A DNA stretch of 38,574 nt from Legionellaceae bacterium (GTDB lineage Bacteria; Pseudomonadota; Gammaproteobacteria; Legionellales; Legionellaceae), in contig JAOAUB010000068.1 of NCBI GenBank assembly GCA_030157805.1, positions 1 to 38,574 of the forward strand, read 5' to 3'. The position numbers and the translations under genes are program-made. The notes under the pieces were generated by a model. That model ran no database searches. It had not been told where the DNA came from and saw nothing but the letters and a program-made list of their open reading frames with translations. How positions within the stretch are numbered: the first letter of the stretch is position 1; every line of letters begins with the position of its first letter. Of the stretch, positions 10,597 to 31,671 are shown one piece after another.

Positions 10597-10827
10597 TTAT
10601 CGATGACTATCGCAATAAGGTAATAGACCAATAAACCGTGAATGTTTAATTGCAACAGCAAGTTGACGCTGCGTGCTAGCAGAGACACCTGTTATACGTC
10701 TTGGTACAATTTTACCGGTTTCGCTAATGTAATTTTTAAGCAAATTAACATCTTTATAATCAATGTCACATGAATCTTCGCTGTTGTTAAAATGAGACAT
10801 TTTTTTACGTCTAAAATAGGCTGACAT
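10597..10827 (-). CDS. rpsR: 30S ribosomal protein S18
   Basis: S18 binds the platform of the 30S subunit together with S6. The protein has 76 residues, the normal length, with the typical YFRRKK start and the conserved core [20 protein letters not shown] followed by RRITG and [17 protein letters not shown] lies 7 bases before the ATG. It is 9 bases after rpsF and 14 bases before the DUF2232 gene. Confidence 0.98.
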
Positions 10828-10836
10828 GAGAGCTCC

Positions 10837-11178
10837 TTATTGGGTGGAATGATCGCGGGTTTCTTTTTTCATAAAAATTGATTCGGCAGTAATTGCGCTC
10901 TTTGTTTTAAGAATCAAACTGCGTAAAATAGCATCATTAAATTTGAATGCATTTTTAAGTTCATCAAGAGATTCCTGACAACATTCAACATTCATTAAAA
11001 TATAATGTGCTTTATGAAGATCATTGATTGGATACGCCAATTGACGACGGCCACAATCTTCTTTTCGATGAATAACGCCCTGATTTTTAGTGATGATTGA
11101 TTCATAACGCTCAACCATTCCTGGAACTTGCTCACTTTGATCGGGGTGAACAAGAAATACAATTTCATAATGTCTCAT
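10837..11178 (-). CDS. rpsF: 30S ribosomal protein S6
   Basis: S6 pairs with S18 in the 30S platform. The protein has 113 residues with the typical N-terminus [19 protein letters not shown], the block [19 protein letters not shown] and the helix [13 protein letters not shown]. The C-terminal tail is Glu/Lys/Thr-rich, as in many S6 proteins. AAGGAA lies about 8 bases before the ATG. It is the first gene of the rpsF-rpsR-DUF2232-rplI operon. In many bacteria an S6:S18-binding leader regulates this operon; I could not recognise that motif upstream. Confidence 0.97.
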
Positions 11179-11553
11179 GATATAGTTCCTTATGGGTTAT
11201 TCCAATTTTGTTTCTGATTAAAGATTCAGAAAAAATTACAAAATTAGAGGAGCATTCACTTAATAAAAAGTTAACTCATTAAATGAAGGCAAGGGTTTTT
11301 AGCTTTGTAAAGACGAAATGCCCACAATTGCAACATGTTCAATTCACAAAGGTATAAAAAACGCTCGATTTTAACCGATCCTACCACGCATAGCAAATAG
11401 TAAAATTACCGAATGACCCGAGCGCGGATTACATCACATTGAAAAGTAACCCAAATCGTGGCGATCAACATGGCAAAGGCATACAAGGTGGTTATCAGCG
11501 GCAAAATTTGAAATTGCACTTTTAGCGAAACAACTATCAATGGATTATTAACG
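11179..11553. other. Divergent intergenic region between rpsF and the DprE1-like gene
   Basis: This 375-base region must hold the promoters of both flanking operons. I see no convincing gene or tRNA. A short inverted repeat at 11211-11232 (TTTCTGA and TCAGAAA arms) lies in the expected rpsF leader. No clear sigma-70 pair stands out on either strand. An autoregulatory S6:S18 leader could lie here but would need covariance modelling. Confidence 0.5.
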
Positions 11554-12858
11554 ATGCGTCATCAATTGAAAAACTTATCTAATTTTACTCAAGCAATTCA
11601 TCGTCAATCTCCTTGTTTTAGACCGGAGAACGAATACCAACTAGCAACAATTTCAACCGAGCAATCGATGCAACAACCCCTAGCACGTGGTGCCGGATTA
11701 AGTTACAGCGATTGTTGTTTAAATAAAGATAAACCCATTATTGATTGCACTCGCTTGAACCATTTTATATCGTTTGACGAAACGAGTGGCTTATTAGTCT
11801 GTCAGCCCGGAATTACATTTTCTGAACTGTTCGAGATCCATCCTGATTTTATTCCTCCTGTAATCCCAGGAACTCTAAAAGCAACACTCGGCGGTGGTAT
11901 TGCCAATGATGTCCATGGCAAAAATAATAGCCGCGCAGGCACGTTGGGTCATCACATTGAATGGCTTGAATTGCAATTGCAAAATAGCGTGATTTATTGC
12001 AGTCGCACTGAAAACGAGGATCTTTTTTTCGCGACCCTGGGTGGTCTAGGACTAACAGGCATCATCAAACGCTTAGCAATCAACTTAAAAAAAGCATCTC
12101 AAGCTGTTCATGTTTCAAAACAACGAATCATGACATGGGAGAAATTATTTCGAGCAATGAGCGAAGAACACCAACACCATGATTATCAAGTGGCCTGGCT
12201 TGATCTTTTAAATGAATCACAACAATCCGTGTTATCCCAAGCCAATCATGACGACTCACCACACACTATCACAACATCTAAACCATTTACCTTGCCCAGA
12301 TTGCCATTTCGATTTATTAGCCGATTGAGTATGAAACAATTTAATCGAATTTATTTTCATGCGGCGCAACAAACAACCCCGCAGATAGTATCACTTAGCC
12401 AATTTAATAATCCATTAGACAGAATCAATCATTGGAATCGTTTATATGGAAAACAAGGATTAGTTCAGTTTCAGGCTGTTTTTGCTCGCGCGAAAGCGGA
12501 TGAAACGCTGTATGAGTTACTGAAAATGATTACTGCCCATGGTGCAACTCCGACATTAGCTGTATTAAAATACTTTAACTTAAAAGGAGCTGGACTGTTA
12601 TCTTTTGTAGAGCCAGGGTTTACTGTCGCAATTGACTTTATTCACAATGAAAATGCAGCCAAGACAATTCAACGAATGAATGAAAAAATCACCTCGATCG
12701 GGGGAAAAATTTATCTGGGAAAAGATTTGTTTTTAACCGCTCAACAGTTCCAAAAGCAATACACCGAACATGCTCTTTTTAATGAGGTACTCAACAAATA
12801 TCACTGCAACGCTCAATCGGATCTGAGCCGCCGTTTAATGATCAAAGGAAATTCATGA
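11554..12858 (+). CDS. DprE1-like decaprenylphosphoryl-ribose 2'-oxidase family flavoprotein
   Basis: The 434-residue FAD oxidoreductase has the PP-loop FAD fold: LARGAGLSYSD at 43-52, PPVIPGT at 101-107, and GGGIANDVHGKNN at 113-125. Next come FATLGGLGLTGIIKR, FNNPLDRINHWNRLYG and a C-terminal substrate-binding part. These blocks follow mycobacterial DprE1 along the whole length. His121 and Lys390 (YLGKD) match DprE1 His132 and Lys418. The residue aligned with DprE1 Cys387 is Ala359 (PGFTVAIDF). By family the enzyme oxidises the 2'-OH of polyprenyl-phospho-ribose to a keto intermediate. It overlaps the partner reductase by 4 bp, which strongly supports the DprE1/DprE2 assignment over a gulonolactone oxidase. 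No UbiA-type phosphoribosyl transferase gene is nearby. Confidence 0.82.
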   Translation: MRHQLKNLSNFTQAIHRQSPCFRPENEYQLATISTEQSMQQPLARGAGLSYSDCCLNKDKPIIDCTRLNHFISFDETSGLLVCQPGITFSELFEIHPDFIPPVIPGTLKATLGGGIANDVHGKNNSRAGTLGHHIEWLELQLQNSVIYCSRTENEDLFFATLGGLGLTGIIKRLAINLKKASQAVHVSKQRIMTWEKLFRAMSEEHQHHDYQVAWLDLLNESQQSVLSQANHDDSPHTITTSKPFTLPRLPFRFISRLSMKQFNRIYFHAAQQTTPQIVSLSQFNNPLDRINHWNRLYGKQGLVQFQAVFARAKADETLYELLKMITAHGATPTLAVLKYFNLKGAGLLSFVEPGFTVAIDFIHNENAAKTIQRMNEKITSIGGKIYLGKDLFLTAQQFQKQYTEHALFNEVLNKYHCNAQSDLSRRLMIKGNS

Positions 12859-13574
12859 ACATAAAAACTTGGTTAATTACTGGTGCAACCTCGATCATTG
12901 CCCAGGAGTTTGCACGTCTTGCGGCGAAATCGGGATGCAATTTACTTTTGCTTGCTCGCAATGCAGATGAACTTGCCATCATTGCTAGCGATTTACAGCT
13001 GCGTTATCAAATTCAATGCACTGTTGTTGTGATTGATTTTTCAGAAAATATCAACTCAAAAATTCATGATTTAATGTTAGAAGATCATGAATTATCTGTA
13101 TTTATTGCTCATAGTCTCACTATGGACAATCAAAATTTAACGCCGGAAAAAATTAACGCCCTTATTCAAACTAATATCACAAGCACCGTGCAACTTATTC
13201 ACGCTTATTTCTCAAAAAAACAAACTACTCATGAGTTGATTTTTTTAAGTTCAGTCGCAGGATGTCGCGGACGTGCTAAAAATAGTCTTTACGGTGCTAG
13301 CAAAAAGGCCATAGAAGTCTATCTGGAAGGATTACAACAGCATGCCAAACCCCATGAGCACATTACCATTGCACGACTTGGATTTATTGACACCCCTCAA
13401 ACGTATGGGCTTCCTGGGGTCTTCTACGCTTCGCCGCCTAAATCTTGTGCCAAAGCCTGTTGGCAAGCTTGTGTTCAAAAAAAACGTATGATTTATCATC
13501 CCTTTTTCTGGAAATACATCATGGAGATTATTAAACAATTGCCTTTTATCCTTTATCAAAGACTCAAGGTTTAG
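12855..13574 (+). CDS. DprE2-like short-chain reductase
   Basis: This 239-residue short-chain dehydrogenase would reduce the 2'-keto intermediate to polyprenyl-phospho-arabinose with NAD(P)H. The nucleotide-binding turn is TGATSIIAQ at 9-17, with Ala16 where most SDRs have Gly. The catalytic set is Ser132/Ser133, Tyr146 and Lys150 (YGASK). The C-terminus FFWKYIMEIIKQLPFILYQR resembles the membrane-facing end of mycobacterial DprE2 (FRYVM, HIP, IFRKLP pattern). The ATG overlaps the DprE1-like stop as ATGA, so the two are translationally coupled. The pair probably acts at the inner membrane. General SDR chemistry on another substrate cannot be excluded from sequence alone. Confidence 0.8.
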   Translation: MNIKTWLITGATSIIAQEFARLAAKSGCNLLLLARNADELAIIASDLQLRYQIQCTVVVIDFSENINSKIHDLMLEDHELSVFIAHSLTMDNQNLTPEKINALIQTNITSTVQLIHAYFSKKQTTHELIFLSSVAGCRGRAKNSLYGASKKAIEVYLEGLQQHAKPHEHITIARLGFIDTPQTYGLPGVFYASPPKSCAKACWQACVQKKRMIYHPFFWKYIMEIIKQLPFILYQRLKV

Positions 13575-13589
13575 AGGGATAATTTTGAA

Positions 13590-13632
13590 TAAAAAAATGC
13601 CTCACCCACGCTAAAGAACGCATCGGGTGAGG
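13590..13632 (-). terminator. Intrinsic terminator of alaS
   Basis: The arms CCTCACCC (13600-13607) and GGGTGAGG (13625-13632) form a perfect 8-bp GC-rich stem. On the minus strand the stem is followed at once by CATTTTTTTA, a good U-tract. It lies just past the alaS stop at 13646. On the plus strand no U-tract follows, so it would serve the DprE2-like gene only weakly. Confidence 0.85.
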
Positions 13633-13645
13633 AAACATCTTATAC

Positions 13646-16255
13646 TTACTTCCTTTCTTCGATCCACGCTTTAATTTGCAGCAGACGACTATCCAAGTCG
13701 GCAGGCACTACACCGCCGCCCTGCGCCATATCATCACGACCACCGCCCTTGCCGCATAGGTGTTTCACTAAAGTTCCAGCATTAGGAACCTGGCCAACAA
13801 TCGACTTGCTCACTCCGGCAATCACTTGCATTTTATCTGCCTCAATCGCATAGAGTATAATCACCACTTGATCAAGCCTAGATTTGAGCTGATCCAAAGT
13901 TGTTCGCAAAGTCTGACCATCCGCCCCTGGCAAATTCTTAATCAATAAATTAATGCCGTTAATTTCAACAAGCTCATCCAACAAATCTCCACTCGATTGA
14001 GACGCAAGCTTTTCTTTTAGCTTAAACAGTGTTTTTTCTTGTTGTTTCATGGTGTTAGTAAAATGAATTAATTTTTCTGCTACTTGCGATGGTGTTGATT
14101 TCAACAAGTCTGCGGCTTTGGTTAGGACGGACAGCTGCTCATGAATCCACGTTAATGCATAGGCCCCCGTCATGATCTCAATACGGCGAATACCACTTGA
14201 AACACCGTATTCTGCAATAATTTTAAAAATACCAATATCGCCGGTTCTTCGTGCATGCGTACCACCGCATAATTCCTTAGAAAAATCACCCAAAGTCAAC
14301 ACACGAACTTTATCAGCGTATTTTTCACCAAACAGAGCCTCTGCACCGCTTGATTTTGCCTCATCAATCGCCATGACTTGCGTCACAACCTCATCATTAG
14401 CACGAATACGATCATTAACTAAACTTTCCAAAGCTTGAATCTGTTCATGAGTCAACGGCTTGTTATGAGAAAAATCAAATCGTGCACGCTCAGCATCAAC
14501 TAAAGAGCCTTTTTGTTGAACATGAGGGCCTACGATCTGTTTCAAAGCAGCATGCAGTAAGTGAGTTGCAGTATGATTAAGACGAATCGCAGCGCGTCGC
14601 GAGGCATCTACGCGCGCTTCGACCACGTCTCCCACGTGCAAAGAACCATTCAACAACTCACCAAAATGAGCAATGGCATGACCTAGTTTTTGAGTATCAT
14701 CAACACGAAAAATAGCGCCTGACACTGAAGTCAACAGTCCTTGATCGCCGACCTGCCCACCGCTTTCTGCATAAAAAGGCGTGTCCAAAAGAACAACCAC
14801 ACCTCGATGACCTGAAATTAATTTGTCTATTTTTTGAGAGTTAAACAGCAAGACCGAAACGCTCGACGTCATTAACTCCACTTCGTAGCCATGAAATACC
14901 GATGATTCCGTCAAATCCGCCGTTGAGTAATCCACTGCAAACTGATTGTTTGACTGCGATAACGTCCGTTGCTGCTGCATGCAAAATTCAAAGCCTTCCA
15001 AATCCACGTGCAATTGATGTTCGCGGGCAATGTCTTGCGTGAGATCCAAAGGAAACCCATACGTGTCATACAACTTAAACGCCACATGCCCTTCAATACG
15101 GTCCGTTGTCATACCCCGAAGATACTCTTGCAATAAAGTTAAACCATGATCTAAGGTACGAGAAAACTGATTTTCTTCTTGCGTCAACACCTGTTCAATC
15201 ACGTCTCGCTGCTCTTTCAAAACCGGATACGCATCCCCCATCACGTCAATTAACGGCGTCACAAGACGAGCAAGAAACGGCGTTCGTAGACCTAATTTAC
15301 TACCATGCCGAATAGCGCGGCGCATAATACGGCGCAACACGTAAGAACGTCCGTCATTTCCAGGTAATACGCCATCCGTAATCAGAAATGAGCACGATCG
15401 AATATGATCAGCAATCACTTTTAAGGAGGGGTTTTTAGGATCAACGCCGACCGTTAATTGGATGATGGCCTGTATCACATGATGAAACAAATCAATCTCA
15501 TAATTATTATGAACGCCCTGCACCACAGCTGTAATTCGCTCCAAACCCATTCCGGTATCAACAGAGGGTTTTGGCAATGGGTGTAAGTTCCCCTGTTTAT
15601 CACGATTAAATTGCATGAAGACCAAATTCCATATCTCAATATAACGATCAGCCTCTGCGCCCACTGAACCTGGCGGGCCGCCTGGAACTTCTGGACCATG
15701 ATCATAAAAAATTTCCGTGCAGGGCCCACAAGGCCCCGTGTCACCCATCGACCAAAAATTGTCTTTTTCACCGCATCGAGAAAAACGGTCAGATGAGATA
15801 CCTACTTCCGTCAACCATATTTCCGCCGCTTCATCGTCGTCTTCATAGACGGTGACCCATAAACGTTCAGGAGGTAAGTTCAAAACACCCGTTAAAAATT
15901 TCCAAGCATAAAAAATAGCATCGCGTTTAAAATAATCGCCAAAACTAAAGTTACCTAACATTTCAAAAAAAGTATGGTGGCGTGCGGTATAACCCACATT
16001 CTCAAGGTCATTATGTTTGCCGCCTGCACGCACACAACGTTGAGACGTCACAGCGCGCGTATAAGGACGTTCTTCTTGCCCTAAAAAAACATCTTTAAAT
16101 TGAACCATGCCAGCATTGGTAAATAATAAAGTAGGATCATTCGTAGGCACCAAAGAACTTGAAGGAAGCTCTTGATGACCTAATGCTGAAAAATAATCTA
16201 AAAATGCTTGTCGAATATCAGAACTGCTTAAGAAATTGTTCGAGTTTTTTTTCAT
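13646..16255 (-). CDS. alaS: Alanyl-tRNA synthetase
   Basis: AlaRS charges tRNA-Ala and edits mischarged Ser and Gly. The 869 residues match the bacterial length. The class II core runs from about 12 to 260, with motif 2 around HHTFFEMLGNFSFGDYF (93-109) and motif 3 near DTGMGLERI. The editing domain carries the zinc ligands His561 and His565 (HTATH) and Cys663 and His667 (CGGTH). The C-terminal domain ends with GKGGGRDDMAQGGG. The start ATG at 16255 has no strong Shine-Dalgarno sequence. Unlike many gammaproteobacteria, recA and recX are not adjacent. It ends in a clear terminator. Confidence 0.98.
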   Translation of the reverse strand: MKKNSNNFLSSSDIRQAFLDYFSALGHQELPSSSLVPTNDPTLLFTNAGMVQFKDVFLGQEERPYTRAVTSQRCVRAGGKHNDLENVGYTARHHTFFEMLGNFSFGDYFKRDAIFYAWKFLTGVLNLPPERLWVTVYEDDDEAAEIWLTEVGISSDRFSRCGEKDNFWSMGDTGPCGPCTEIFYDHGPEVPGGPPGSVGAEADRYIEIWNLVFMQFNRDKQGNLHPLPKPSVDTGMGLERITAVVQGVHNNYEIDLFHHVIQAIIQLTVGVDPKNPSLKVIADHIRSCSFLITDGVLPGNDGRSYVLRRIMRRAIRHGSKLGLRTPFLARLVTPLIDVMGDAYPVLKEQRDVIEQVLTQEENQFSRTLDHGLTLLQEYLRGMTTDRIEGHVAFKLYDTYGFPLDLTQDIAREHQLHVDLEGFEFCMQQQRTLSQSNNQFAVDYSTADLTESSVFHGYEVELMTSSVSVLLFNSQKIDKLISGHRGVVVLLDTPFYAESGGQVGDQGLLTSVSGAIFRVDDTQKLGHAIAHFGELLNGSLHVGDVVEARVDASRRAAIRLNHTATHLLHAALKQIVGPHVQQKGSLVDAERARFDFSHNKPLTHEQIQALESLVNDRIRANDEVVTQVMAIDEAKSSGAEALFGEKYADKVRVLTLGDFSKELCGGTHARRTGDIGIFKIIAEYGVSSGIRRIEIMTGAYALTWIHEQLSVLTKAADLLKSTPSQVAEKLIHFTNTMKQQEKTLFKLKEKLASQSSGDLLDELVEINGINLLIKNLPGADGQTLRTTLDQLKSRLDQVVIILYAIEADKMQVIAGVSKSIVGQVPNAGTLVKHLCGKGGGRDDMAQGGGVVPADLDSRLLQIKAWIEERK

Positions 16256-16312
16256 GCGTCAATTCAGCCAAGTTATTAAGTTCTGTTAATAATTACTCTA
16301 TAAGGCCTACAT

Positions 16313-16340
16313 ACCGTATCTTGAGAAAATAAAATGTCAA
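16313..16340 (-). promoter_or_regulatory. Possible alaS promoter
   Basis: On the minus strand a perfect TTGACA (16335-16340) is followed after 16 bases by TACGGT (16313-16318), a poor -10. This would give a leader of about 50 nt before the alaS start. Confidence 0.4.
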
Positions 16341-16449
16341 CAGGCCCTATTTATAATTTAATTAAACATGATAGAGATGAAGTCTGAATGTTAACAAATC
16401 CATATAAAAAATCGAGGCATTAATCACTTGAAGCAGCTACTTTTTTTCT

Positions 16450-17289
16450 TTGGATAATGTTAGCATTTCAAATAGTATTCACACCTCTTCTGATAGTTAC
16501 TCTAATGGAACACGTTATGGTAATCTTAAAACCATGATCTCAACTATTTTAAAAAAAACCGGAAAAAAAACATATCAACTTGTTGAGACGTTTTTCTTTT
16601 TTTTTGAATTTCTTGGCGCATTAATCTCACAGCTTCTACGTCATGGCAACAAAGTGACTTGGCGTAAAATGATTGTCGCGAACTTGCATTTTGGGACATC
16701 GATAGTTATACCCCTAATTCTTATTAGCATGCTCATTGGTATCGCTCTTACTGTCAGCGTCCATCTGACGCTGGCCCGTTTTCATCTTCAACAACAAGCC
16801 ATGGTCATCGTTCAAACGGCCATGCTGCGCGATATCGCGCCACTCCCTATCGGCTTTGTACTTTGCGTTCACTGCGGTTTAAATCTTATTGAAAAAGATC
16901 ACCCAAGCTTACATCAAGAACCTAAAATTATATTATGGGAAACAATTATACCCTTATTTGCCGGAATTAATATTGCAGCATTACTGCTTTACTCTTACGT
17001 GTTCACTTCTTTTTTATTCAGCGCCTACATCTCTTCTTATTTTATTTTAGAAAGTAACACTGATGAGTATTTACTCAATTTAAGCCAATTAATCAACCCC
17101 TGCCAGGCTATAGAGTCAATAGTAAAAACATTAAGTTACGCAACAACCGCCTGCCTCGTTGCCGGGTATTATTATTATGCAGTCGCAAGCGAGATAATCC
17201 CAACTCGCAAAGCAGTCTCAAGAATCATTACACGCAGCCTGTTTTGGTTGCTTTTACTAAGTGTTGCATTGAAGTTATTTATTCCGTAA
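16450..17289 (+). CDS. Divergent MlaE-family ABC permease
   Basis: The protein has up to 279 residues and about five membrane helices. It aligns by pattern with MlaE permeases: an amphipathic N-terminal helix rich in Phe (ETFFFFFEFLGALI, 47-60), the block LRDIAP in place of LRELGP, and a C-terminus IIPTRKAVSRIITRSLF corresponding to the family's GVGRATTRAVV. The usual cytoplasmic coupling helix (AGRxGxxxxAElGxMxxxEQ) is missing and the loop is about nine residues shorter. The start is uncertain: TTG at 16450 has a weak ribosome binding site, and ATG at 16534 would give 251 residues. The MCE and lipoprotein genes follow within 45 bases, but the ATPase gene normally present in such operons is absent. 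It probably belongs to an inter-membrane lipid transport system. Confidence 0.75.
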   Translation: MDNVSISNSIHTSSDSYSNGTRYGNLKTMISTILKKTGKKTYQLVETFFFFFEFLGALISQLLRHGNKVTWRKMIVANLHFGTSIVIPLILISMLIGIALTVSVHLTLARFHLQQQAMVIVQTAMLRDIAPLPIGFVLCVHCGLNLIEKDHPSLHQEPKIILWETIIPLFAGINIAALLLYSYVFTSFLFSAYISSYFILESNTDEYLLNLSQLINPCQAIESIVKTLSYATTACLVAGYYYYAVASEIIPTRKAVSRIITRSLFWLLLLSVALKLFIP

Positions 17290-17333
17290 CTACAGCACGT
17301 TAACCCCAGGGGAAATAAAGGTGAAACTACGTT

Positions 17334-18092
17334 ATGACTGAACAGCAACGACCGTATAAAACCATTGGTTTTTTTGTTTTTGGCGCTTTGATTTTATCAC
17401 TATTAACCGCCTATCTGTTTTTTGGCCGCTACTTACAGGGCCGAGTTGAAACTTATGCGATGTTATTTAATGGTTCACTCACGGGGCTTGATATTACCTC
17501 CCCTATTACTTACCGAGGCGTGAAGGTTGGGGAAGTCAGTCGCATTGAATTAACCGCCGCCAAAACTAAATCAAAAATTTCAATTCCTGTTTATGTTGAA
17601 TTTTTCATTGAAAAATCGTTTGTACAAAAAGACAATCCCATTGAGATCTTAATTGAAAACGGCATTGTTGCGACAATTTCAGCACCTAATATTTTTACAG
17701 GAACAGCAAGCATTCAATTAGTCCCAGGAAAATCAAAAAAAATACAGTCTCTATCAAAGACTTTCCATGGTTACGCTATGTTTCCTACTCAAAGCGCCAC
17801 AGAAGAGGATGAAATTAATCTAAACGATACGTTACAAACCGCCCATAAAGCCTTTGAGAATATCAGTAAGTTTGTGACGTCAAAAGAATTTAAAGAAACA
17901 CTTTTAACCATCAAAGACACCTCCGACAGCATTGACAAACTCGCCACGACGCTTGATAACCAAGTACCCGGCGTATTACTCTATTTCAGTGATGGTTTAA
18001 GAGAATTTTCAAGAGCCGCTTATTCAGCAAGAAGTTTAACTGACTATTTGGCTCGCCACCCAGAAGCATTATTGCGCGGAAAAAAAATATGA
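17334..18092 (+). CDS. MCE-domain (MlaD-like) inner-membrane protein
   Basis: This 252-residue substrate-binding protein belongs to a lipid transport system. One N-terminal transmembrane helix (about 10-30) anchors it in the inner membrane. A single MCE domain follows at about 38-120, with the signature ITYRGVKVGEVSRIEL and the later ENGIVATISAPNIFTGTASI. From about 155 to 240 there is a mostly helical tail with ENISKFV and SDSIDKLATTLDNQVPG, which could line a channel toward the outer membrane as in other MCE proteins. The stop overlaps the lipoprotein start by 4 bp. AAGG lies about 11 bases before the ATG. Confidence 0.9.
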   Translation: MTEQQRPYKTIGFFVFGALILSLLTAYLFFGRYLQGRVETYAMLFNGSLTGLDITSPITYRGVKVGEVSRIELTAAKTKSKISIPVYVEFFIEKSFVQKDNPIEILIENGIVATISAPNIFTGTASIQLVPGKSKKIQSLSKTFHGYAMFPTQSATEEDEINLNDTLQTAHKAFENISKFVTSKEFKETLLTIKDTSDSIDKLATTLDNQVPGVLLYFSDGLREFSRAAYSARSLTDYLARHPEALLRGKKI

Positions 18093-18694
18093 ACAATCAA
18101 TCAAGATGGCATCGACGATTTCATTGTCTAAGCTTTATCCTTTGTTTCTTCTTGTCAGGGTGTCACTCCAGCATCGAACCTGATCTTTATGTGCTCAATC
18201 CGAAGCCATTTACAATGAAAGCTCAAGGCAATCATCAGCCCACACTGATTGGCATTGATTCAGTGACCCTGCCTGAATACCTCGATAATCCACAGCTTAT
18301 GATTTTCACAACACCTCATCAAAGTAATCTTCTGGAGCATCACCAATGGGCCGAGCCCTTATCAAGCAACATACAGCGTGTTATTCAAACCAACCTCATC
18401 AACAGTTTGCCAGGTGCGGCCATTGAAATTGCACCGTGGGATAGTAACTTCTATCCACAATATCATCTGCGAGTGGAAATATCACAGTTTAAAGTAGACA
18501 AGTTGGGCAATAGTATTTTACGAGCAATTTACACCATAGAGTCTGAAAACAAGACGGTTCATCAACATCAAATTCAACTTTATGAAAAATTAACGATGGT
18601 CACACCAACAACGATCGTACTCAGCATGAATACGTTACTTAATCAATTAAGTGATAAAATTGCTGCATCGTTCACCCATCAAGAAAAAACATGA
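18089..18694 (+). CDS. ABC-type transport auxiliary lipoprotein (PqiC/YmbA-like)
   Basis: The protein has 201 residues. The N-terminus has a positively charged start, a hydrophobic stretch and the lipobox LSGC at about residues 22-25, so it is a lipoprotein that is probably sorted to the outer membrane. The segment DLYVLNP, then LIGIDSVTLPEYLDNPQLM and AEPLSSNIQRVI, is characteristic of the ABC_trans_aux/PqiC family that docks on MCE tunnels. It overlaps the MCE gene by 4 bp (ATGA). It is probably the last gene of the three-gene cluster. Confidence 0.88.
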   Translation: MNNQSRWHRRFHCLSFILCFFLSGCHSSIEPDLYVLNPKPFTMKAQGNHQPTLIGIDSVTLPEYLDNPQLMIFTTPHQSNLLEHHQWAEPLSSNIQRVIQTNLINSLPGAAIEIAPWDSNFYPQYHLRVEISQFKVDKLGNSILRAIYTIESENKTVHQHQIQLYEKLTMVTPTTIVLSMNTLLNQLSDKIAASFTHQEKT

Positions 18695-27541: not shown

Positions 27542-28939
27542 ATGATTGACCGAGTTTTGAACACCTATTTTTTAGTTGCTTTACTCCTGTTTAACGCATT
27601 CATTGTGTCACCCACCTATGCCTTTAATCCTTACTCAACGGAGGAGCTTGAGCAACTCGAAAAGCAATTTATTCAACTAATCAATCAATCTGATCAAGTT
27701 GAACGCAATCCGCTGGCAGCTCAGTACATTAATCATCTTGGCCGCGAACTATCCCATGGGGCACCAATGCAGACCCCTCTTTTTTTTATTGTCAAATCAA
27801 ACGAAATTAATGCATTTGCAGGTCCTGGTGGATATATTGGCATTAATTCAGCTCTAATTCTAGCAACCGAGAATGAAAGTGAACTTGCTGCCGTCATGGC
27901 TCATGAAATGTCACACGTTAGGCTTCATCATCTTTATCGTATGATTCAACACCAAAAACAAATGCGTGCCCCAATGTTAGCCTCCTTACTTGCCTCGGTG
28001 GCTTTAGGTGTCATTAATCCAACCCTAGCAAGCGGCGCCATGGCAGCCTCACTGACAGGATTTGCCCAAGACAGCATTAACTTTACACGTTCCAATGAAA
28101 AAGAAGCTGACCGAATCGGCATTGATATGCTCATTAAAGCGGGTTTTAACCCACGAAGCATGGCTTCTTTTTTTAAAAAAATGCAAGAAAACAGCCGTTA
28201 TTATTACACCTCCAACATTCCCGCCATTCTGCGCAGTCACCCCTTAGACGAAGATCGTATTGCTGAGGCTGAAAACCGTAGTGCCAATATTAAAAAAACC
28301 ACTTATTCCGATACCCTTGATTACCATTTATTTAAAGAAATCATTCGTAATGCCGTTAGTAATGATTCTAAAAAGCTACTGGATTTTTACCAAACTCAAT
28401 GCCAAAAACACAATAATCATGCCGCTTGCACCTACGGAAAAACGTTAACGTTGTTAAATCTGAATCACTTTCAACAAGCAGAGCTGAATTTAAGTCCTTT
28501 ATTACAAAATAATCCCAATAATTTGTTTTACCAATTTGCTATGGCTGATGCAGAGATCGGAGAAAAACAATTCACCCAAGCCATCAAAAGACTGCATGAC
28601 CTACAGCATAATTATCCTGATAATTATGCTGCACTCATGAATTATGCACAAAGTTTACTCGCCGCAGGACAAAGTGAACATGCGGCAAGTCTTCTTATTA
28701 AAGGGTTTCGTCAATTTAAACACGATCTACCCCTATGTGAAGCTCTTGCTCAAACCCAAGCGGAAGCTCATCAAAAAGGTTATGCCTATTTGACACAATC
28801 ACAATGTTATTTATTGCAAGGACGACGTTTTGATGCACTACGGCAACTTGAGCAAGCTAAATTATTCGCAAAAAATGATCATTATCTCCTCGAACGAGCT
28901 AATGCCATGGTTGAAACTATTAAAATGATGAGCCAATGA
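27542..28939 (+). CDS. bepA: BepA-like periplasmic M48 metalloprotease with TPR repeats
   Basis: BepA assists or degrades outer-membrane assembly intermediates such as LptD. The protein has 465 residues. A signal peptide ends at about residue 27 (PTYA). The M48 active site is HEMSH at 121-125, with the third zinc ligand Glu188 in NEKEAD. His233 in RSHPLDEDRI corresponds to the BepA loop histidine (His246 in E. coli) that masks the active site. From about 260 to the end there are TPR-like helices. The start ATG lies 36 bases past the palindrome. The stop overlaps the secreted deacetylase gene by 4 bp. Its place beside lptFG fits an LPS-transport quality-control role. Confidence 0.9.
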   Translation: MIDRVLNTYFLVALLLFNAFIVSPTYAFNPYSTEELEQLEKQFIQLINQSDQVERNPLAAQYINHLGRELSHGAPMQTPLFFIVKSNEINAFAGPGGYIGINSALILATENESELAAVMAHEMSHVRLHHLYRMIQHQKQMRAPMLASLLASVALGVINPTLASGAMAASLTGFAQDSINFTRSNEKEADRIGIDMLIKAGFNPRSMASFFKKMQENSRYYYTSNIPAILRSHPLDEDRIAEAENRSANIKKTTYSDTLDYHLFKEIIRNAVSNDSKKLLDFYQTQCQKHNNHAACTYGKTLTLLNLNHFQQAELNLSPLLQNNPNNLFYQFAMADAEIGEKQFTQAIKRLHDLQHNYPDNYAALMNYAQSLLAAGQSEHAASLLIKGFRQFKHDLPLCEALAQTQAEAHQKGYAYLTQSQCYLLQGRRFDALRQLEQAKLFAKNDHYLLERANAMVETIKMMSQ

Positions 28940-29790
28940 AAAAAATAACCTTATTGTTTGTAACCTTATTATTACTATTGATTAAAAATTGCATAGCCCA
29001 AGAGCGTACCATCGCAATCACACTCGATGACTTACCCTTTGTTGGTGAAGGCGCCAATTTTCATCTCAATCTCATCATTGACTGCATTGAAAAAAATAAT
29101 ATCCCCGTGACTGGTTTTATTATTGGAGAAAAGGTTGCCCCCAAAACCTGGCCGGTCTTAGAACGTTTTCGCAACGTTGGCCAAGGACTGGGTAACCATA
29201 CCTTTTCTCACTCAAGCCTCGATCAAATGGACGCGGCAACGTACATTCAAGAAATTGCCCGAACGGATGACAAAATACGCCCGCTCTTAACGGAGCCGAA
29301 ATATTTTCGTTACCCCTACCTTGCGATGGGTCATGGTTCCAAAAAAGAGGCCGTTTTAAACTACTTAGCCCAGCAAAATTACCATGTTGCGCCGATTACC
29401 ATTGATAGCAAAGACTTTATTTTTAACCAACAATTATTAGCTACTCCTGAAATAGAACGCCGTGATTTTCTCAAAGAATTAGCCCCTGTTTATCTTGACT
29501 ATATTTTGATTCAAACTCTCGATGCAGAGCAGTTCAATCGTGCCAACCATTTTCAAAATCGTGCTCAAATTCTTCTCATTCATGCCAACTTACTTAACGC
29601 TTATATGTTATGTGACATCATTAATTTATACAAAGCGTTGGGATACCGCTTTGTGTCGCTAGAAAAAGCATTGCAAACATTTCCGCTGAACCACAGGATG
29701 CGAACCCATGCAGCAAAACTTAATATCACCACACCGAAAACTAACGATACCATTAATCATCAAATCGAAGAATTTCAGATTTGGGATTAA
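28936..29790 (+). CDS. Exported NodB-type polysaccharide deacetylase
   Basis: The 284-residue protein has a signal peptide ending near CIAQ (21-22) and a single NodB domain. The first motif is TLDDLPF with Asp31 and Asp32, followed by the zinc motif HTFSH (His88, His92) and then RYPYLAMG. The late His motif is LIHAN. The metal triad Asp-His-His and the substrate Arg are therefore all present. It would remove acetyl groups from a periplasmic or cell-surface polymer such as peptidoglycan or an exopolysaccharide; the substrate cannot be read from sequence. It is translationally coupled to the BepA-like protease by a 4-bp overlap, an unusual pairing. Confidence 0.85.
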   Translation: MKKITLLFVTLLLLLIKNCIAQERTIAITLDDLPFVGEGANFHLNLIIDCIEKNNIPVTGFIIGEKVAPKTWPVLERFRNVGQGLGNHTFSHSSLDQMDAATYIQEIARTDDKIRPLLTEPKYFRYPYLAMGHGSKKEAVLNYLAQQNYHVAPITIDSKDFIFNQQLLATPEIERRDFLKELAPVYLDYILIQTLDAEQFNRANHFQNRAQILLIHANLLNAYMLCDIINLYKALGYRFVSLEKALQTFPLNHRMRTHAAKLNITTPKTNDTINHQIEEFQIWD

Positions 29791-29833
29791 GAAACAGCAC
29801 CAAAATCAAATGTTGTTGTCGAATAAATTGAGT

Positions 29834-29839
29834 TATAAT
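29834..29839 (+). promoter_or_regulatory. -10 element for the glycosyltransferase gene
   Basis: A perfect TATAAT lies 27 bases before the ATG at 29866, in a 75-base gap after the deacetylase stop. The best -35 candidates (TTGTTG at 29813-29818) are spaced by only 15 bases, so the promoter is tentative. Confidence 0.4.
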
Positions 29840-29865
29840 TCTTAACTTTAGGTTACTGGAAAACA

Positions 29866-30828
29866 ATGGATCTAACTCACATTAAACTCACTATCATTGC
29901 CCCCATGTTTAATGAAGAGGCGGTGATTAAAGCCTATATTGAACACACCATTGCGGTGCTTGATCTTCATTTTATTGATTATGAACTAATTCTCATTGAC
30001 GATGGATCTACCGATCAAACCGTGCAATTTTGTTTACCTTACATTAAAACCAATAAAAAAATAAGACTTATTTCTTTTTCCAGAAACTACGGGCATGAAA
30101 TCGCATCTACCGCAGGTTTGGATCATGCGCAAGGTGATTATGTCATTCTTATGGATACCGATTTACAACACCCTCCCGAAATAATTCCTGCCTTAGTCAA
30201 AAAGGCAATGGAAGGTTACGATGTGGTCTGTGCCGCACGCAATAACCGAGAGTCTGAACCTTGGTTAAAAAAAATGACCGCAAAATTATTTTATCGTATT
30301 TCTCATAAAATGACGGGCTTTGATTTGGCTTCCGACACGGGTAATTTTCGTTTGTTGAGTCGAAAAGTCGTCGAATCATTAAAAAAAATGAAAGAAAGCA
30401 ATCGCCATTTGGTGATGATGTTTGCTTACGTTGGTTTTAAAACAACTACCATTACCTATCATTGCCCACCAAGACTTGCCGGACAAAGTAAATACACGCT
30501 TCGAAAGCTCATTCATTTATCGCTTGATTCCATTATTGGTTTTTCAGGAAAACCATTACGTACCATGTCGATTTTATCCGTGTTGATCAGTATCATTATG
30601 GTTTTTTACGCAGGATTTATCCTCGTTCAAAAATTATTTAGTCATCAACACCTTGCCGATGGCGTGGCGTCAATCATCTTCCTCATTTCCGGGTTGTTTT
30701 CTATTTTGTTTTTATTTTTAGCTGTGATCTCAGAGTACATTAGCCGTATTTTGATCGAGACTAAAAATCGTCCTTTGTATAATATTAAACACGAAATTAC
30801 TTATGACTCACTGAATGATGTTCACTAG
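29866..30828 (+). CDS. Polyprenyl-phosphate glycosyltransferase (GT2, GtrB/ArnC/FlmF type)
   Basis: The 320-residue enzyme transfers a sugar from a nucleotide donor to undecaprenyl phosphate at the inner membrane. The GT-A domain occupies about 1-235, with PMFNEE at 13-18, IDDGSTD at 44-50 and the DTD metal site at 97-99 followed by LQHPPE. Two C-terminal transmembrane helices lie at about 238-262 and 270-296, the usual GtrB/ArnC architecture. Only three bases separate it from a YdjC-family deacetylase gene. That pairing matches Francisella FlmF2 next to NaxD, which together make undecaprenyl-phosphate-galactosamine. The sugar donor cannot be determined here; a Glc or GlcNAc donor is an alternative. 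Confidence 0.87.
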   Translation: MDLTHIKLTIIAPMFNEEAVIKAYIEHTIAVLDLHFIDYELILIDDGSTDQTVQFCLPYIKTNKKIRLISFSRNYGHEIASTAGLDHAQGDYVILMDTDLQHPPEIIPALVKKAMEGYDVVCAARNNRESEPWLKKMTAKLFYRISHKMTGFDLASDTGNFRLLSRKVVESLKKMKESNRHLVMMFAYVGFKTTTITYHCPPRLAGQSKYTLRKLIHLSLDSIIGFSGKPLRTMSILSVLISIIMVFYAGFILVQKLFSHQHLADGVASIIFLISGLFSILFLFLAVISEYISRILIETKNRPLYNIKHEITYDSLNDVH

Positions 30829-30831
30829 ATC

Positions 30832-31671
30832 ATGTTAAAAAACATCCTAATTTGTGCCGATGATTATTCTCAAAACAACGCCATTTGCGACGGCATTTTA
30901 AATTTGCTAAGCCAAAAAAAAATCAATGCAACCAGTTGCTTGGTGAATTCAGAAAGCTGGAATGAAACGCATCAAGCATTAAATCAATTTAAAAATCATG
31001 CTTTGATCGGTTTGCATTTGAATTTGACACTCGGTTCTCCTTTAAGTCAAACTTGGAAAAAATATTATGGAAACTCATTTCCTGGTCTAGGTCAGGTAAT
31101 AAGACGATGTTATTCATCAACTTATCAAAAAGACGCCTTTGTTGCAGAAATCAATGCTCAAGTGGATGCGTTTACCCACGCTTTAGGCATCAATCCTGAT
31201 TTTATTGATGGCCATCAACATATTCATCAGCTTCCTGGTCTTCGTGATGTGTTAATGGCGAGTCATACGCAACAACATTGGACTGGGTTTTTTCGCAACA
31301 CCAGCAATGGCGTAAGTGATTATTTATCGTTAGCATCGTTTCCAAAACGTCAACTTATTGCTTTGTTAGGTGGGCATGACTTTAAAAAAAGCTTAACCCA
31401 AGAAAAAAAAGCAAGCAATACTAGCTTTGCGGGGATCTACAATTTTAAGCATGCCGCAAATTATCGTCATTACTTCAAAAAGTTTTTAAAGTTAAGCCAA
31501 CCAGGCGGCTTGATTATGTGCCACCCTGGAATGCCTTCAACAGATCATCGTGATCCGCTTTACCGATCTCGTCATCATGAATTTCATTACTTCATGAGCG
31601 ATGATTATGTGCAGGATTTAGCGGCCAATCAAACCGAGTTAGCGACTCAAGAAAACTTGATCCTCAGTTAA
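30832..31671 (+). CDS. YdjC/ChbG-family carbohydrate deacetylase (NaxD/HpnK-like)
   Basis: The 279-residue cytosolic or membrane-associated enzyme carries the YdjC signature. Asp10 and Asp11 lie in CADDYSQNNAICDGI, His62 in LHLNLT, His128 and His130 in DGHQHIHQLPG, and a late CHPGMP motif follows. These form the metal and catalytic site of ChbG, HpnK and NaxD. By context the substrate is likely the lipid-linked N-acetylhexosamine made by the adjacent glycosyltransferase, as for Francisella NaxD. There are no hopanoid genes nearby, which makes the HpnK role less likely. It converges on ligA with a 30-base gap. Confidence 0.87.
   Translation: MLKNILICADDYSQNNAICDGILNLLSQKKINATSCLVNSESWNETHQALNQFKNHALIGLHLNLTLGSPLSQTWKKYYGNSFPGLGQVIRRCYSSTYQKDAFVAEINAQVDAFTHALGINPDFIDGHQHIHQLPGLRDVLMASHTQQHWTGFFRNTSNGVSDYLSLASFPKRQLIALLGGHDFKKSLTQEKKASNTSFAGIYNFKHAANYRHYFKKFLKLSQPGGLIMCHPGMPSTDHRDPLYRSRHHEFHYFMSDDYVQDLAANQTELATQENLILS

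Follow-up and report, generated by a model that had tools for sequence, protein, structure and literature searches.

The window, that is, the whole stretch of DNA that was analysed, comprises contig C68 from position 1 to 38574 and belongs to a Legionellaceae genome of 1.84 Mb in 111 contigs with a completeness of 99.8%. A sequence-only reading of this DNA had proposed a DprE1/DprE2-like epimerase pair in a "Legionella-like" genome. Both open reading frames were recovered where it had placed them, on the forward strand and with an overlap of four base pairs reading ATGA, and the attribution of the genome also held, the named relatives of the GT-C protein described below being nearly all Legionella. 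The features of the locus are as follows.

11554-12858, forward strand: DprE1-like FAD oxidase of 434 amino acids, a predicted polyprenyl-phospho-ribose 2'-oxidase (NCBIfam and PDB matches)
12855-13574, forward strand: DprE2-like SDR reductase of 239 amino acids, predicted to reduce the 2-keto intermediate (NCBIfam, PDB, orthologues and structural model)
12855-12858, forward strand: ATGA overlap of the stop of the dprE1-like gene and the start of the dprE2-like gene (direct sequence reading)

The two genes are likely to be translationally coupled via the ATGA overlap. An Rfam search of positions 10800-16500 of the window returned no match. The pair is bordered by housekeeping genes without a related role; among 20 relatives inspected, many carry a flagellar/rpoD-type region and alaS-recX-recA on its flanks, and none has envelope genes beside it. 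Two other groups of genes were observed in the window. The first, at 16450-18694, is probably a set for lipid transport: an MlaE-like permease (a weak match) comes first, then an MlaD-like protein and then a lipoprotein, with no ATPase gene directly adjacent. At 28936-31671, a separate small glycan set consists, in a row, of a polysaccharide-deacetylase-like protein, a GT2 polyprenyl-phosphate sugar transferase (NF047588, 251 bits, below cut-off) and a YdjC-like deacetylase.

The oxidase and reductase pair

The top NCBIfam model for the oxidase is that of DprE1 (NF053785), which was matched with 250 bits over residues 23-429 against model positions 20-448 of 449, below the equivalog cut-off of 500 bits. 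That threshold was reached by none of the homologues of 369 gammaproteobacterial genomes, indicating that it was set for actinobacteria, and the window protein would on its sequence be classed as a divergent DprE1-like enzyme rather than a curated equivalog. A single-sequence search of the PDB retrieved mycobacterial DprE1 structures (1e-46, residues 40-411), and a profile of 18 Legionellaceae orthologues matched DprE1 residues 11-460 at 6e-66 over profile positions 6-428 of 430, the next non-DprE1 family following at 1e-9. The homology is full-length, both the FAD domain and the substrate domain being covered by the profile. The likeness to the mycobacterial enzymes along their whole length, as claimed at the outset, was thereby borne out for DprE1; for DprE2 it is true but weak when taken by itself (80 bits).

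In an alignment with DprE1 of M. tuberculosis, whose numbering is used here, Y60, H132, K134, W230, Q334, Q336, K367, Y415 and K418 are conserved without change, both in the window protein and throughout the 18 members of its clade. C387 of the mycobacterial enzyme, to which benzothiazinones bind covalently, is replaced by Ala in every gammaproteobacterial sequence examined, including that of the window, and Y314 is aligned with Asn in the window-type clade only. In a DprE1 tree, the window type (system A) forms its own clade, composed of Legionellaceae alone, with a support of 100/100 and a branch length of 1.18.

For the reductase, the top NCBIfam model is PRK07102 (NF005489, 143 bits), followed by DprE2 (NF053786) with 80 bits over residues 4-238 against 9-251 of 252; the latter score is below the cut-off of 250 bits, and DprE2 is not the closest SDR model. 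Likewise, DprE2 was one of many SDR matches in the PDB and not the top one. The SDR of a linked DprE1 cluster in a related genome also ranks PRK07102 (247 bits) above DprE2 (166 bits), so that PRK07102 probably represents DprE2 as it occurs in proteobacteria, and the profile of the window SDR matches the SDR of linked DprE1/E2 clusters with an E-value of 1e-23. Residues Ser132/133, Tyr146 and Lys150 are invariant in the 18 orthologues; the predicted model adopts an SDR fold (mean pLDDT 85), the matches listed in a fold search being generic SDRs; DprE2 entries such as 21gq were not among the rows listed, which speaks neither for nor against the assignment. With this fold, the Ser-Tyr-Lys residues and its position adjoining DprE1, the protein was classed as DprE2-like. 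It belongs to the SDR subfamily with which DprE1 is paired in other gammaproteobacteria, and its identity as DprE2 rests on the pairing more than on sequence. The original assignment as DprE2 therefore stands as "DprE2-like", the protein being nearer to this proteobacterial subfamily than to mycobacterial DprE2.

This SDR adjoins DprE1 in all 30 DprE1 loci examined, and this pairing is far above chance. The alternative that the window merely holds a generic FAD oxidase and a generic SDR, brought together by chance or serving an unrelated metabolic role, would accord with the many equally good SDR matches in the PDB and with the unrelated housekeeping genes alongside. It is nevertheless very improbable, and chance pairing was already disfavoured, in view of the adjacency at every locus examined, the gap between DprE1 and the next structural family, and the co-occurrence of DprE1 with the DPPR synthase outside the Legionellaceae (p 4e-49).

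The DPPR synthase and its GT-C neighbour

Three UbiA-family genes are present in the source genome. One of them encodes the DPPR synthase, sought elsewhere in the genome and on whose presence the sequence-only reading depended.

C65:33345-34208: DPPR synthase of the UbiA family (NF008977, decaprenyl-phosphate phosphoribosyltransferase, 291.7 bits)

The score of this protein, encoded on contig C65, exceeds the curated cut-off of 234 bits, and in the PDB it is matched best by the structure of the mycobacterial enzyme (8j8j, 6e-22). It keeps both the NDxxDxxxD and the KRxxE motifs, the second of which is missing in the UbiA-family protein encoded on contig C9. Alanine replacement in the Citrobacter enzyme targeted the corresponding motif Asp, Arg and Glu and showed them to be essential (PMC11127046), the residue correspondence with the C65 protein being set here by motif spacing. 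The C65 synthase has no HAD phosphatase domain. The stop of its gene overlaps (ATGA) the start of a gene for a membrane protein of 544 amino acids, which is followed by a gene for a WbpM/PglF-type dehydratase. A protein of about 400-490 amino acids without a Pfam match was also seen to be encoded divergently upstream of the synthase gene in 38 of 66 loci compared (for example, L004:11621-12988, reverse strand).

The 544-residue protein matches no Pfam or NCBIfam family. Its AlphaFold2 model, computed with 27 relatives, displays a GT-C fold (mean pLDDT 82, pTM 0.87), and the first three Foldseek matches are chains of AftA and AftB, with oligosaccharyltransferases (OST) and ArnT close behind; VIA-align returned many GT-C enzymes at Z 13-20 without singling out AftB. 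As these matches are spread over GT-C enzymes, the fold speaks for the class and not for the substrate. In a profile search of the PDB, AftB was the sole sequence match, with an E-value of 0.23 that is not significant alone. The protein carries the DD motif of the AftB-like fold, and D62, E172 and R221 of AftB align with its D34, E136 and R186, none of which varies among the 27 relatives; the aligned range excludes R372 of AftB. In AftB, D62 is catalytic, E172 binds the C5-OH and R221 binds the phosphate of the arabinosyl donor (PMC12041299). In another Legionellaceae genome, the GT-C protein belonging to a linked HAD-UbiA/DprE1/DprE2 cluster is also matched by the profile (E 6e-10). The gene adjoining that of the DPPR synthase thus supplies the GT-C protein that had been looked for in the genome, and its product is the likely D-arabinofuranose (D-Araf) transferase of this pathway.

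As for the acceptor, no pilin gene was seen beside the GT-C gene in the Legionella loci read, and in the part of a study of L. pneumophila pilin covered by a word search, glycosylation appears only in a reference; pilin as the acceptor of D-Araf is neither supported nor opposed by the evidence. The WbpM-like neighbour hints, as a guess from gene order, at an acceptor glycan containing a 6-deoxy-aminosugar.

Neither a dedicated 5-phosphatase gene nor a dedicated flippase gene (MATE or GtrA/SMR) is linked to DprE1/E2 or to the DPPR synthase locus. A stand-alone GtrA protein encoded on contig C24, unlinked to these loci, is one candidate flippase. PAP2 phosphatase matches were found in a 213-residue protein on contig C6, weakly similar to undecaprenyl diphosphatase, and within a longer frame on contig C105; neither could be assigned.

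Distribution in Legionellaceae and other gammaproteobacteria

The survey covered 143 genomes of the order, every one of which falls in the Legionellaceae. The DPPR synthase was found in 111, DprE1 in 107 and the GT-C protein in 88; the synthase is present in every one of the 107 genomes with DprE1 and of the 88 with the GT-C protein, and synthase and DprE1 are both missing in 32 of the 143. The source genome shares with about three quarters of the relatives checked a dispersed set of core genes that looks complete. Genomes of the same family are not independent, and genome-level p-values overstate the evidence; at the level of genera, 15 of 33 have the GT-C protein, and each of these is one of the 23 with the DPPR synthase (p 5e-4). 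The gene order UbiA, GT-C, WbpM is kept across the Legionellaceae. One contig scan gave as carriers of the GT-C protein, among others, L. jamestowniensis, L. feeleii, Fluoribacter (Legionella) gormanii, L. tucsonensis and L. norrlandica; L. pneumophila did not appear by name in its loci. The DprE1 match at G064:C7:4158-5431 is broken by three stop codons, with the UbiA and GT-C frames open, and L. norrlandica (L073, G508:C7:4161-5264) has, at almost the same place on its contig, a DprE1 frame shortened to 373 amino acids; G064 and G508 may therefore belong to one species.

Some Legionellaceae carry a second system (system B), a linked cluster of a HAD-UbiA fusion, DprE1, DprE2, a GtrA-type flippase and GT-C-like proteins that sits inside polysaccharide islands. 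Its DprE1 sequences fall in the tree among other gammaproteobacterial sequences, mostly from linked clusters. In L148-L150 (genomes G054, G058 and G074), the HAD-UbiA fusion, DprE1, DprE2 and GtrA were seen linked in polysaccharide gene islands together with large GT-C-like membrane proteins that match neither Pfam nor NCBIfam.

Of the 92 genomes whose DPPR synthase is of the A type, 11 lack the GT-C protein but retain the synthase and the WbpM-like neighbour, and most of these retain DprE1/E2 as well; the vacated slot is empty or holds unrelated genes, with no replacement transferase in it. It follows that another user of the donor exists, or that the pathway is changing and the GT-C protein is being lost in these genomes. 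A second GT-C copy, 38-40% identical, was observed in Legionella sp. PC1000, L. anisa, L. parisiensis, L. steelei and L. bozemanae (L114, L116, L117, L120 and L126), within a conserved polyhydroxybutyrate-metabolism-like neighbourhood and with no UbiA gene adjacent. The possibility should be considered that the donor pathway is right and that the GT-C protein is either not the arabinosyltransferase or one of several, with another transferase using the lipid-linked D-Araf. The 11 genomes lacking the GT-C protein, most of them with DprE1/E2, and the unrelated surroundings of the second copy would favour such an arrangement, which we consider unlikely, though worth keeping in mind, against the ATGA overlap and conserved order of the GT-C and synthase genes, the complete nesting of the GT-C protein within synthase presence in the family, and the three donor-site residues shared with AftB.

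Outside the family, 365 other gammaproteobacterial genomes were sampled with thresholds of E <= 1e-25 for the DPPR synthase and E <= 1e-50 for DprE1. The synthase was found in 77, DprE1 in 65 and both in 61 (p 4e-49), and in 50 of these 61 the two lie within 10 kb of each other. The arabinose-donor pathway is hence common in Gammaproteobacteria and not a mycobacterial rarity. The view that the pair is unusual for its genome had to be abandoned, as the pair is a family-wide feature of Legionellaceae and about 18% of the sampled gammaproteobacterial genomes have related pairs. GT-C homologues are present in just five of the 365 genomes, all five of which have the DPPR synthase or DprE1 (p 5e-4); these are orphan genes without linkage to UbiA or DprE1.

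The proposed pathway and its relatives

Taken together, the enzyme families, most of the active-site residues, the fold and the gene co-occurrence argue that the window pair is probably the epimerase step of a polyprenyl-phosphate-D-Araf pathway that has its remaining genes at other places in the genome and whose transferase would be a periplasmic GT-C protein. The substrates, order of steps, location and product may be proposed as follows. The UbiA-family enzyme on C65 would move 5-phosphoribose from PRPP onto a polyprenyl phosphate, presumably undecaprenyl phosphate, after which a phosphatase would strip the 5-phosphate from the lipid-linked phosphoribose. The DprE1-like oxidase would then use FAD to oxidise the lipid-linked ribose at C2, and the DprE2-like SDR would reduce the resulting keto group with NAD(P)H to give the arabino form. 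A flippase would carry the lipid-linked D-Araf to the periplasm, where the GT-C-fold protein may pass the sugar to an envelope acceptor. The D-arabinofuranose donor predicted for a Gram-negative bacterium is thereby supported, at the level of sequence, by the DPPR synthase with its 291.7 bits, the DprE1 residues and the co-occurrence of the two.

Several findings count against this pathway, namely the unlinked state of its genes in the genome; the DprE1 score below cut-off, together with its long branch and the change of Y314 to Asn; an SDR that is not specifically closest to mycobacterial DprE2; the lack of a linked 5-phosphatase or flippase and the orphan state of the outside GT-C homologues; and the 11 of 92 genomes in which the GT-C protein is missing, meaning either that something else also uses the donor or that the pathway is in flux there. 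The pair might alternatively act on a different lipid-linked sugar or yield another pentofuranose (ribofuranose being kept, or a C2-keto product), in which case the end sugar would not be D-Araf. In line with this are the divergent DprE1 clade, the scores of both oxidase and SDR below their NCBIfam equivalog cut-offs, the use of DPPR synthases by Ribf and Xylf systems as well (PMC11127046), and the three genomes with the synthase and without DprE1 (G060, G076 and G096). We judge it rather improbable, since every tested catalytic and cofactor residue of DprE1 is kept, the NF053785 cut-off appears to be set for actinobacteria, DprE1 never occurs without the DPPR synthase in the family, and sequenced makers of Araf-containing glycans have DprE1/E2 (PMC11127046).

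The D-Araf pathway can be set beside three known systems. Kelly et al. (2024, PMC11127046) described three-component systems for periplasmic pentofuranose addition in Citrobacter youngae O1/O2, with variants that carry DprE1/E2 for Araf. Common to these and the Legionellaceae set are a UbiA-family polyprenyl phosphoribose synthase and a GT-C-fold transferase, with epimerases where the sugar is not ribose. In contrast, the Legionellaceae genes lie at two loci that are not part of an O-antigen cluster, the synthase lacks a HAD phosphatase domain, no flippase is linked, the GT-C protein has no Pfam or NCBIfam name, and the set is conserved across the family rather than variable between serotypes. 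Given this different layout without a flippase in the cluster, it is put forward as a variant that would work like a three-component system.

With the mycobacterial DPA pathway (Rv3806c, Rv3807c, DprE1/DprE2, Rv3789 and AftA-D/Emb), the Legionellaceae set shares the DPPR synthase and DprE1 families, the DprE1-SDR pairing and a GT-C-fold enzyme in which D62, E172 and R221 of the AftB donor site are kept. It differs in its low sequence identity, the change of C387 to Ala, the presence of one AftB-like GT-C protein in place of a set of arabinosyltransferases, the lack of arabinogalactan and a lipid that is presumably undecaprenyl. The glycosylation of pilin with D-Araf in Pseudomonas paraeruginosa (TfpW, genes PSPA7_6245-6251; PMC12369383) likewise involves a Gram-negative host, ubiA and D-Araf biosynthesis genes, and a GT-C arabinosyltransferase, the likeness being one of gene content. 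In that species a single island holds the biosynthesis genes and TfpW is encoded with pilA, whereas the Legionella GT-C gene has no adjoining pilin gene in the loci read.

As a kind, such linked clusters are already known as three-component pentofuranose systems (PMC11127046), and they are common among gammaproteobacteria. What appear to be new are the split, family-wide layout, the separate long-branched DprE1 clade and the GT-C family, "unnamed" in the sense of having no name in the databases searched. A search of literature available mostly without subscription found no report on Legionella that mentions arabinofuranose or DprE1.

The sugar D-arabinofuranose, familiar above all from the cell wall of the tuberculosis bacterium, has otherwise been described mostly in the walls of mycobacteria, in a small number of O antigens and on the pilin of Pseudomonas. 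On balance, we lean slightly towards the view that most Legionella species make an unreported envelope glycan or glycoprotein bearing D-Araf, via a split pathway specific to the family with its own DprE1 clade and an unnamed GT-C family. If true, a surface sugar would have been overlooked in the well-studied Legionellaceae, human pathogens included, which would matter for serology, phage receptors and host recognition. The family would also provide a second natural setting for DprE1, one in which Ala stands in place of the cysteine that benzothiazinones bind covalently, as in all gammaproteobacterial sequences examined.
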